Source: an uncultured bacterium (GTDB lineage: Bacteria; Patescibacteriota; Minisyncoccia; Phycocordibacterales; UBA918). From it: a stretch of DNA of 38,178 bases. The notes below the pieces were generated by a model. It was not told the origin of the DNA. It was given only the letters and a program-made list of their open reading frames with translations, and did not search any database. How positions within the stretch are numbered: the stretch's first letter is position 1; every line of letters begins with the position of its first letter. This document shows positions 10,039 to 36,148 of this stretch, piece by piece. Where the stretch lies: the NCBI GenBank assembly GCA_950073265.1, contig CATMPJ010000007.1, positions 1-38,178 of the forward strand, written 5' to 3'. The position numbers were made by a program, and so were the translations under genes.

Positions 10039-11004
10039 TTAGTCTTCTAGTTTAAGGTTAAGGCCAGCAAGGAGTTCGACAATTTCTTCTAGTGCTTTCG
10101 GTCCTACACCATCGAGCGCAAGAATATCATCTTTTTTCTTTCGCACAAGGCCTCCAATAGTTCGAATCGAAGCAGATTCTAAAGCCTCTAATGTACGAGC
10201 GCTAAGATCTAGTGTCTCGATACGAGTCTTAAGTACTTCCTGATCTGGTTCAGGCTCTACTTCCGCTGGTACGGCAGCAGTTTCTTCTGATTTAGAACCA
10301 TGTTGTTCTTCGTCTTGAAAACCAATCACAGACTTAAGTTGGTGGACCATAATTTCCACTGCGTTCTCGAGTGCTTCACGTGGAGAGTAGGTGCCATCTG
10401 TTTCAATGGTGATGCGGAGACGGTTATAGTCAGTTCGATCGCCAACACGCATGTTTTCGACTTCGTAGTTTGCACGACGAATTGGAGTGAATACCGCATC
10501 AAGTGCAATTGCCCCAATTTCCATTTTTTCTTTAGCGTGGATTTCTCGTGGGACATAGCCAAGACCTCGTTCTACCGTCAGTTCCATTTCGAGCTTAGTG
10601 CTCTTGTTGGTGATTTCGGCAATAACTTGTTCTGGATTAAGAATTTCAACCTGACTCGGAACCGTAAGATCGCCTGCTGTTACGACACCAGCGCCACTCT
10701 TTGAAAGAGTGATCTTAACCGCTTCGTCACTGTGAGATGCGAGTCGGACGCGTCGCAAATTGAGCAACATAACAATAACGTCTTCTTTCACTCCATCAAG
10801 ACTTGAGAACTCGTGTTCAACGCCGTTAATCTTTACTTGGGTGATAGCTGCTCCTGGTAAAGAAGATAGAATAATTCGGCGAAGTGAGTTACCGAGTGTG
10901 TGTCCGTAGCCTGGATAGAGGCCGTCAATTTCGAATACTCCTTTATTATCTTCTTCTTTTACGACGCGCGGCTTTGACGGGAGGGTTACATTTGTTTCCA
11001 ACAT
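10039..11004 (-). CDS. rpoA: DNA-directed RNA polymerase subunit alpha
   Basis: YPGYGHTLGNSLRRIILSSLPGAAIT...; helix-hairpin-helix C-terminal domain present. Confidence 0.98.
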   Translation of the reverse strand: MLETNVTLPSKPRVVKEEDNKGVFEIDGLYPGYGHTLGNSLRRIILSSLPGAAITQVKINGVEHEFSSLDGVKEDVIVMLLNLRRVRLASHSDEAVKITLSKSGAGVVTAGDLTVPSQVEILNPEQVIAEITNKSTKLEMELTVERGLGYVPREIHAKEKMEIGAIALDAVFTPIRRANYEVENMRVGDRTDYNRLRITIETDGTYSPREALENAVEIMVHQLKSVIGFQDEEQHGSKSEETAAVPAEVEPEPDQEVLKTRIETLDLSARTLEALESASIRTIGGLVRKKKDDILALDGVGPKALEEIVELLAGLNLKLED

Positions 11005-33343: not shown

Positions 33344-34444
33344 CTATGAATGCAAAAATTCAATCACGTCACCGTCTTGCACGATGTATTCTTTCCCTTC
33401 AGTGCGTAGTTTCCCCTGGTCTCTGGCCACTGCTTTTGAACCAGCACTCACAAGATCTTCAAAACGTACCACCTGCGCTCGAATATACTTATCTTTGAAA
33501 TCAGTATGAATGGCGGCTCCGGCTTCTGGTCCAGTAGCACCGCGCTTTACAGTCCACGCTCTAGTCTCTTTTTCACCAGTGGTGAAATAACTCATGAGCC
33601 CAAGCCGAGCATACGCCGCTCGTATGAGTGACTCAACCCCACTATCTTGCGCTCCATATTCGCGCCTAAATTCAGTTTTCTCCTCTTCAGACAAATCTTT
33701 GAGTTCATGCTCCATCCCTGCATCGACTACGACGTACTCTGCTCCGGTACTTTCAAAAAACTCTACCAGTTCTTGCCAGCGCTCGTCGTTATGCTCATCC
33801 AAATTAAATCCATCCTGTTTCTTATTACAAACATACAAGAATGGTTTCATCGTAAGGAGGTGCAAGCCTTTGATCAGCTTTTCCTCTGACTCTGTCATAC
33901 TAAACGAGTTGGCTAGACTGCCTGCTTCTAGGTGAGGTAAAAGACGACTAAGTAAATCTTGGAGAGCGACAGCGTCTTTGTCTCCTGCCCGCACATCCCG
34001 AGCCAAGGTACCAATTCGTTTACTCACAGTCTCTGCATCAGCCATAATGAGCTCAAGGTTGATAGTTTCAATGTCTCCCATTGGGTCAATTCCGCCCGAC
34101 ACATGATGAATATCACTATCTTCGAAAATTCGCACCACTTGCGCAATCATGTCTGTCTCACGAATATTAGCTAAAAACTTATTACCCAAGCCCTCCCCAG
34201 CTGAAGCGCCTTTTACTAAACCAGCGATATCGACGAACTCAACCACCGCTGGAATACACTTTTCGGAACCGGAAAGATTACTTAGTGTTTTAAGGCGTGA
34301 ATCAGGAACAGCAACCACTCCCACAGTAGGATCGATAGTGGCAAATGGGTAATTTGCCATAAGTACGTTGTTTTTGGTTAAGGCATTAAAAAGCGTTGAT
34401 TTTCCAACGTTTGGTAGACCGACGATTCCAACTGAGAGAGACAT
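33344..34444 (-). CDS. ychF: YchF/OLA1-family ATPase (Obg-like)
   Basis: VGIVGLPNVGKSTLFNALTKNNVLMANYPFATIDPTVGVVAVPD, VDIAGLVKGAS, TGS-like C-term GAAIHTDFKDKYIRAQVV. Confidence 0.97.
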   Translation of the reverse strand: MSLSVGIVGLPNVGKSTLFNALTKNNVLMANYPFATIDPTVGVVAVPDSRLKTLSNLSGSEKCIPAVVEFVDIAGLVKGASAGEGLGNKFLANIRETDMIAQVVRIFEDSDIHHVSGGIDPMGDIETINLELIMADAETVSKRIGTLARDVRAGDKDAVALQDLLSRLLPHLEAGSLANSFSMTESEEKLIKGLHLLTMKPFLYVCNKKQDGFNLDEHNDERWQELVEFFESTGAEYVVVDAGMEHELKDLSEEEKTEFRREYGAQDSGVESLIRAAYARLGLMSYFTTGEKETRAWTVKRGATGPEAGAAIHTDFKDKYIRAQVVRFEDLVSAGSKAVARDQGKLRTEGKEYIVQDGDVIEFLHS

Positions 34445-34539
34445 GATTGTTTAAGGTGATGAAGAATTAAAAGCGCAATGCTCTAGTCACAGACTAGACA
34501 GTAGATAATGCGAGTAGCTTAGCAGATTTTTTAAAAAGA

Positions 34540-34569
34540 AAAAGGCTGGGTGTAACCAGCCAAAAAAAA
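34540..34569 (-). terminator. Second hairpin terminator downstream of the ncRNA candidate
   Basis: Minus strand: U8 then GGCTGG-TTACAC-CCAGCC followed by TTTTTCTTTTT. Confidence 0.7.
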
Positions 34570-34667
34570 GTTGATGGTGCGCTACCACGCGGTGGGGCTT
34601 GTCGCACTGTGAAATGTACGATACGTGAGTTCACCCCGCATCCGTGAAGGGGTCACACACCATCAAC
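34570..34667 (-). ncRNA. Candidate structured small RNA or cis-regulatory leader (class unknown)
   Basis: Perfect 10-bp closing stem GTTGATGGTG/CACCATCAAC enclosing three nested or adjacent helices; followed by T8 on the minus strand. Confidence 0.6.
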
Positions 34668-34705
34668 CGCACAAGAAAGTATCAAATTATTAGCTCTAGC
34701 GCAAA

Positions 34706-35545
34706 TTACCAAGGGAGCAAGGGCGGTTCATACTCACAGAAGATTACCTCGTCTGGAGATGTATCAAGCAACACTGCTAGTGACTCTTTAGCCTCCATAC
34801 GGCCACCCACTGCGTCTATCAGTTCTGATTCGAGTGCCCGAGAACCTGTCATACTAGCCCCGTCCGCCAACGCCGCCACTTTATCTCTGTCTAGGTTGCG
34901 ATAGCTTGAAACAAGGTCGATAAAATAGTTGTGTACCGTATCTAAATCAGCTTGCAAGAGTTCTCGTTCTTCGTCTGTGATTGGGCGATACGGTGAACCA
35001 ATATCTTTAAATTTGCCAGTAGTAAGACGCACGTATTCTATGCCTTCTTCATCAAGCTTCTCTGATTCTTCAAGATACGACATATTAACCCCGATACTTC
35101 CGACGTTGGACATAGCAGATGCAAGTAAATAATCGGTGGCCGCTGCAATCATGTAACCTCCCGAAGTCCCTTGATCACCAATCAAGCCAACGACTGGCAC
35201 ATTTGTGTTGCGGACACGCTCGGCAATTCGTTCTGAAGCCACTGGTGTTCCTCCCGGCGAGTTTATTTCTAAAAGAATTGCTTTAATTGTTTCTTCACTT
35301 TCAATTTGGCTAAAAAATTCTTCAACAGCATCAGGAGTAGTTATTAACGGAGCATCATAGATACCTAAATACGGCAAAATGATTCCTTCTATTGGATAGA
35401 CAGCTACGTTGCACACCCCGTCACCCACCGTCTCTTCAAACTCATAGAGAAAACCTAGCAGCGAAAAAAAGAACACTAAAGACAGCACGACGACAATCGC
35501 TTTAAAAACAACCACCCCCAGTTCTCTCGCTAATGTTCTATGCAT
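34706..35545 (-). CDS. SppA-like S49 signal peptide peptidase
   Basis: LLEINSPGGTPVASERIAERV, GDQGTSGGYMIAAATDYLLASAMSNVGSIGV; N-terminal TM. Confidence 0.9.
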   Translation of the reverse strand: MHRTLARELGVVVFKAIVVVLSLVFFFSLLGFLYEFEETVGDGVCNVAVYPIEGIILPYLGIYDAPLITTPDAVEEFFSQIESEETIKAILLEINSPGGTPVASERIAERVRNTNVPVVGLIGDQGTSGGYMIAAATDYLLASAMSNVGSIGVNMSYLEESEKLDEEGIEYVRLTTGKFKDIGSPYRPITDEERELLQADLDTVHNYFIDLVSSYRNLDRDKVAALADGASMTGSRALESELIDAVGGRMEAKESLAVLLDTSPDEVIFCEYEPPLLPW

Positions 35546-35566: not shown

Positions 35567-36148
35567 CTATTTTCCCGCTGCTCCTAGCTTGGCGATTTCT
35601 TTCATCCACTTTGTTCGACATGCATTTTCTGCACGCTCACATGGACCATAGGCACTTACTTTTGTTTTGATACCTGCAAACTCTAGGATTCCGTACTGGA
35701 TTTCATTGGTAAAGTCTCCGTATTTCCACCAGGTCTTAAATGGACTGTGTGAGCCAGAAAGAATAAATACGCGTCCAGTTTTACCTTTTAAGTGACTCTC
35801 TACTCTTTTCGTTTTTTTGTTAAAGTTAAAGGCAAAACCCGGTAACCAGAAACGATCAAACAGCCCTTTAAGAAGCGCTGGCATGGTGGTCCACCAGTTT
35901 GGATAAGCAATAACCAAGTGATCACACATCCTAATGGCGTCCTGCAGCTTAACCAGATCGGGTTCAAGTGGTTGAATTTCTTTGTATCCCTTATGAAGAA
36001 TCGGATCAAATTTCATTTCACTTAAGTTAAAGCGAGAAACTTCATGGCCGTTTTGTATAGCAGCTGCTTCATACGTATCGAGCACTGAGCCAGTAAATGA
36101 TTCTATATCAGGATTGCCACAAATGAGAACTATTTTTTTGTTAGACAT
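35567..36148 (-). CDS. Flavodoxin-fold NAD(P)H oxidoreductase (KefF/MdaB-like)
   Basis: IAYPNWWTTMPALLKGLFDRFWLPGFAFNF; LICGNPDIESFTGSVLD. Confidence 0.88.
   Translation of the reverse strand: MSNKKIVLICGNPDIESFTGSVLDTYEAAAIQNGHEVSRFNLSEMKFDPILHKGYKEIQPLEPDLVKLQDAIRMCDHLVIAYPNWWTTMPALLKGLFDRFWLPGFAFNFNKKTKRVESHLKGKTGRVFILSGSHSPFKTWWKYGDFTNEIQYGILEFAGIKTKVSAYGPCERAENACRTKWMKEIAKLGAAGK

Follow-up and report, generated by a model that had tools for sequence, protein, structure and literature searches.

The described systems that come closest to the element analysed here are the independently transcribed small RNAs of bacterial intergenic regions that end at intrinsic terminators, the tandem intrinsic terminators of operon ends and the ribosome-mediated attenuators with their leader peptides. 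In E. coli, YchF, whose gene lies downstream of the element, regulates the translation of leaderless mRNAs by repressing it (PMC8138138). Little literature on small RNAs was found for the host-dependent, reduced-genome group of bacteria concerned.

The window, i.e. the whole stretch of 38,178 nucleotides that was analysed, is contig C7 of a 0.70-Mb genome that is 97% complete (G000 when compared with its relatives). 'Candidatus Kaiserbacteria' is the named organism closest to it, which places it among the Patescibacteria. On its minus strand a flavodoxin-like oxidoreductase gene (35567-36148) is followed by an sppA-like gene for an S49 peptidase, ending in a TAA stop codon at 34708-34706, then by the RNA candidate and by ychF. 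The features of this region are the following.

34706-35545, minus strand: sppA-like gene (Peptidase_S49, PF01343, E 3e-35; open reading frame), upstream neighbour of the RNA candidate
34676-34704, minus strand: predicted promoter of the RNA candidate, TTGCGC (34704-34699), 17-nt spacer and extended -10 TGA-TACTTT (34684-34676); a weak match, from the sequence and a genus matrix
34570-34667, minus strand: RNA candidate of 98 nt, its ends joined by a perfect 10-bp stem (13 bp with G·U), from the sequence and folding
34655-34667, minus strand: 5' arm of the terminal stem, GTTGATGGTGTGT, predicted pair probabilities at least 0.94
34631-34663, minus strand: 10-codon frame ATG...TGA (MVCDPFTDAG) inside the RNA, a putative leaderless micro-ORF
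34570-34582, minus strand: 3' arm of the terminal stem, GCGCACCATCAAC, predicted pair probabilities at least 0.94
34562-34569, minus strand: T8 tract adjoining the stem
34533-34561, minus strand: canonical intrinsic terminator GGCTGG-TTACAC-CCAGCC followed by TTTTTCTTTTT, from a terminator scan
34516-34526, minus strand: ychF promoter, extended -10 TCTGCTAAGCT (TGCTAAGCT at 34524-34516), predicted start near 34509; motif common to relatives
33344-34444, minus strand: ychF, ribosome-binding ATPase/GTPase (PF06071 and PF01926)

An earlier note on this DNA had described at 34667-34570 a structured, undescribed-looking RNA, and the minus-strand letters that it quoted match the window sequence exactly. 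The perfect 10-bp terminal stem that it reported (GTTGATGGTG/CACCATCAAC) is real and reaches 13 pairs when G·U is counted, each with a probability of at least 0.94 in the folding model, and its base is A/U-rich. The T8 directly 3' of the stem and the second terminator hairpin behind it are likewise present in the sequence, so that the 3' end carries the intrinsic termination signals expected of an independent small RNA. A terminator occupies the equivalent place in the relatives G013, G022, G024 and G033, and the junction of U-tract and promoter at the canonical terminator matches that of G022.

The multi-helix architecture proposed inside this stem was not borne out. The structures drawn in the earlier note reach -17 to -24 kcal/mol as compared to an optimum of -40.5 kcal/mol for the whole 98-mer, and each of the inner helices (ACCCC/GGGGT, GTGAA/TTCAC, GTA/TAC, GTGCG/CGCAC and CCAC/GTGG) has a probability of 0.003 or less. 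When folding was compared with shuffled sequences, the 98-mer scored z -2.8 and its opposite strand z -1.5, and the 72-nt interior was no more stable than its own shuffled versions, of which 104 in 300 folded as well (z -0.3). Since the interior scores only z -0.3 and the inner helices are unsupported, the overall value comes from the terminal stem. Nothing suggests a conserved fold or a ligand-binding core. Among 1,841 intergenic windows sampled in the genome, 3.3% reach -40.5 kcal/mol and 15% lie at a mononucleotide z of -3 or below, many of these windows being ordinary terminators. The fold z-score was thus dropped as a sign of function, many spacers of the genome scoring better and most of these being plain terminators, long and perfect. 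One other spacer of the same genome (L068, about 10300-10440, plus strand) holds a long rod-like structure, AAAGTTTCAAAATC...GATTTTGGAAGTTT enclosing GCTGAAAATTTTAC/GTAAAATTTTCAGC, which by energy is a better structured-RNA candidate than the element at 34570-34667.

The rarity of the stem was measured by scanning the genome for two perfect 10-bp arms, separated by 55-160 nt, of which the second abuts a run of six or more T, in a genome-wide reading that covers all but 740 bases of the 0.70 Mb. The RNA candidate is the sole intergenic match, and one other true match lies in a coding region; a third hit, a false one with arms thousands of bases from each other, was set aside. Genomes shuffled with an order-2 Markov model gave 1, 0 and 0 sites by the same scan; the stem is therefore unusual, yet on its own within what chance provides.

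Thirteen ychF promoters of the genus served to build a promoter matrix. Its best site before the RNA, ATTTGATACTTTC (P 0.032 against random 60-nt stretches of the genome), ends 7 nt, or one start-distance, before the predicted start, which is the first base of the stem, whereas a generic sigma-70 scan found no promoter before the candidate. This arrangement is no more than suggestive of an RNA that begins with the first base of the stem or right next to it, as predicted from sequence. The frame MVCDPFTDAG would then begin 4 nt from the predicted 5' end, and it overlaps the 5' arm. The proposal of an independently terminated small RNA accordingly stays plausible by virtue of its T8, its canonical terminator and an extended -10 placed at the first base of the stem, with the empty generic scan counting against a separate start.

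The word "undescribed" holds in a narrow sense, as an Rfam scan of the window (Rfam 15, 4227 models) returned no match at gathering score and, at E up to 10, chance matches only, the best being TarB with 19.1 bits against a cut-off of 80. The 5S (RF00001), SRP and 6S families gave no match at the candidate even at E 10, the 5S of the genome was found elsewhere, on contig C11, and a search of this genome with the 6S model (RF00013) stayed empty up to E 10. We rejected 5S, SRP RNA and 6S as identities on the basis of these searches and of the missing relatives in the genus. A highly diverged housekeeping RNA of this kind could be imagined from the length near 100 nt and from the fact that SRP and 6S RNA were not found elsewhere in the genome, but this reading is already largely refuted and next to impossible: in addition to the Rfam result at E 10 and the 5S located elsewhere, the genus and order genomes searched lack the Ffh M domain, the partner to which SRP RNA binds, and the candidate has no genus relatives whereas housekeeping RNAs would be conserved. 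The perfect 10-bp terminal inverted repeats could also be those of a small MITE-like mobile element with GTTGATGGTG termini. That origin, too, is largely refuted and barely credible, since blastn finds one copy in its own genome and none in 37 relatives and the borders are without a target-site duplication. In a search for antisense targets, the longest perfect complementarity elsewhere in the genome was 13 nt, close to chance.

The SRP searches returned an observation in its own right. SRP RNA (RF00169, RF01854) and the Ffh M domain (PF02978) were found in none of 37 genomes (G000 and 36 relatives from 15 genera of the order, 30 of the 37 at least 90% complete), while the control genomes were positive in 11 of 14 cases for RF00169, 10 of 14 for RF01854 and 14 of 14 for PF02978. 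A tblastn search of G000 with E. coli Ffh, using an approximate query sequence, returned only the P-loop of a PilB-type ATPase. The order may lack or have lost the signal recognition particle, and this apparent absence, which may matter more than the RNA candidate, deserves its own study.

Conservation was examined in 38 genomes of the same genus (Ca. Kaiserbacteria-type Patescibacteria). The blastn searches of 59 relatives, 38 genus genomes and phages returned short chance matches only, and the best two, once inspected, proved to be a spacer without the stem (L003) and a promoter-like match only (L002). A one-sequence covariance model run over the 38 genus genomes found itself and its own inverse strand only. 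Neither search thus gave a relative of the candidate in these 38 genomes whose base pairs could be compared for covariation, and no conservation was seen. The genes sppA and ychF are still adjacent in seven relatives, with a spacer of 56-88 bp in G002, G027, G005 and G006, 206 bp in G022, 257 bp in G033 and 515 bp with an inserted gene in G034. The existence of the 56-88 bp spacers implies that the RNA unit is dispensable, and by blastn the only spacer parts common to relatives are the sppA tail and the junction of terminator U-tract and ychF promoter. Hairpin segments of about 90-150 nt followed by terminators occur in the sppA-ychF spacer of G022, G033 and G009 and upstream of ychF in G024 and G015, each with promoter-like sequence as judged by eye. 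The segments, unrelated in sequence and with promoters assigned by eye, are listed here.

L012, 2738 to about 2640, minus strand: spacer hairpin segment
L017, 1326-1440, plus strand: spacer hairpin segment
L015, from 1308, plus strand: spacer hairpin segment
L055, from 2363, plus strand: spacer hairpin segment
L024, from 2726, minus strand: spacer hairpin segment

No shared sequence was found among the units of G000, G022, G033, G009, G024 and G015, nor any Rfam match in those of the relatives. The units of G022 and G024 are without relatives in the genus, a weak G006 match falling in a coding frame. When all units were scored with the ychF matrix only the promoter of G000 stood out, and the promoter assignments in the units of the relatives are consequently weak. 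We conclude that the sppA-ychF spacer tolerates hairpin/terminator units without conserving any one of them. It is to be noted that the G024 unit carries TTGACT-N17-TATAGT and that in the units of G022, G024 and G033 a very short frame opens with an ATG a few nt past the -10. In L055 (G009), a remnant resembling the ychF start (ATGTCACTATCTGTCGGGACTG) was recognised by eye after the sppA-side unit and an intact ychF lies elsewhere, which suggests a relocation of ychF in this genome.

The earlier note had also offered a cis-acting leader or attenuator for ychF, a role with which the ychF promoter is at odds. A ATCTGYTANNCTA-like motif is present upstream of ychF in 13 of the 15 relatives examined, a few nt from the ATG, so that the mRNA should be leaderless in these relatives; in the window species about 65 nt separate the predicted start from the ATG, and this untranslated region holds a CTAGTC/GACTAG hairpin. 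The motif (34524-34516) sits downstream of the RNA candidate and of both terminators. Only if polymerase passed both of these terminators would the candidate become part of the ychF leader, and it does not lie in the predicted ychF transcript between start site and ATG. As this promoter is nearly invariant in the genus, structured stretches before ychF should not be taken for ychF leaders by default.

A ychF leader or attenuator, possibly run by translation of the 10-codon leaderless frame over the 5' arm, is improbable on these grounds, even though the element lies on the same strand upstream of ychF, the frame starts 4 nt into the RNA, an ATG a few nt after the -10 was also seen by eye in the corresponding units of G022, G024 and G033, and YchF acts on leaderless mRNA translation in E. 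coli (PMC8138138). Besides the conserved promoter downstream of both terminators, it has against it that one sees no antiterminator that could pair with the second terminator, and that the ATG pattern is post hoc, with guessed start sites and peptide sequences that are not alike. A more elaborate form, in which translation of the 10-codon frame would open or close the stem and so let transcription from the sppA side into ychF, the input possibly being the capacity of the cell for leaderless initiation and sequence-unrelated units of the same logic standing before ychF in other Kaiserbacteria, appears very improbable.

We tentatively favour, with a confidence somewhat short of even, a lineage-specific transcript of about 100 nt in the sppA-ychF spacer that is independently started and terminated, over the 3' end of the sppA transcript. 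Several observations argue for it: a stem joined to T8 that is the only intergenic site of this design in the genome and appears 0-1 times in shuffles; an extended -10 (P 0.032 in a 60-nt search) exactly 7 nt before the stem; a second terminator, with ychF having its own conserved promoter downstream; and the unrelated terminator-ended hairpin segments in the spacer or upstream of ychF in other members of the genus. The absence of any relative by blastn or one-sequence structure model in the 38 genus genomes, an interior that folds like shuffled sequence, a promoter known only as a consensus match with an empty generic scan, and the 56-88 bp spacers of G002, G005, G006 and G027 weigh on the other side. 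A quite possible alternative is that no separate RNA exists: the sppA transcript would run on into the element as its 3' untranslated end, and the 13-bp stem and T8, together with the canonical hairpin, would act as tandem intrinsic terminators, or the stem would guard the 3' end. The T8 that adjoins the stem, the canonical terminator directly behind, the abundance of intergenic hairpin terminators in the genome and the lack of conservation all agree with this, whereas an intrinsic terminator formed in this way would have a very large loop, of about 72 nt, and an A/U-rich stem base, a canonical terminator stands next to it in any case and the extended -10 lies exactly before the stem. That the whole is a functionless inverted repeat fallen by chance before a T-run of the spacer is unlikely: the same lack of conservation, the random-like interior and the shuffled genomes that give up to one such stem are compatible with it, but stem, T8, promoter spacing and second terminator stand together in one 170-bp spacer.

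If the independent transcript exists, RNA polymerase would use the extended -10 just past the sppA stop codon, begin with the stem's first base or its neighbour, and produce a non-coding transcript of about 98 nt and a U-tail, the two ends of which are strongly predicted to zip into the 13-bp stem. Transcription would probably end at the T8 with the canonical terminator as a backstop, and the pair of terminators would also close sppA transcription and shield the separate ychF promoter. Closure by the end-to-end stem would stabilise the RNA, and the loosely folded 72-nt interior might, as a conjecture, pair with an mRNA. In terms of novelty this is at most a further lineage-specific candidate among small RNAs. 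Should it be transcribed, it would count as a single such RNA of a host-dependent bacterium with a reduced genome and not as a new RNA class.

Compared with the known systems, the candidate resembles the ribosome-mediated attenuators in its short 5' frame, the translation of which would block the 5' arm of a terminator-like stem, and differs from them in that ychF has its own promoter 3' of both terminators and that an alternative antiterminator was not found here. With the independently transcribed intergenic small RNAs that end at intrinsic terminators it shares promoter-like sequence, a length of about 100 nt, a U-tract, an intergenic position and lineage specificity; unlike them, it has a closing stem that itself bears the T8, in place of a separate terminator hairpin at the 3' end, and a second terminator lies behind. 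Like the tandem intrinsic terminators of operon ends it presents two hairpin and T-run signals after sppA and before the next promoter, the first hairpin differing from the usual ones by its loop of about 72 nt and its weakly paired interior.
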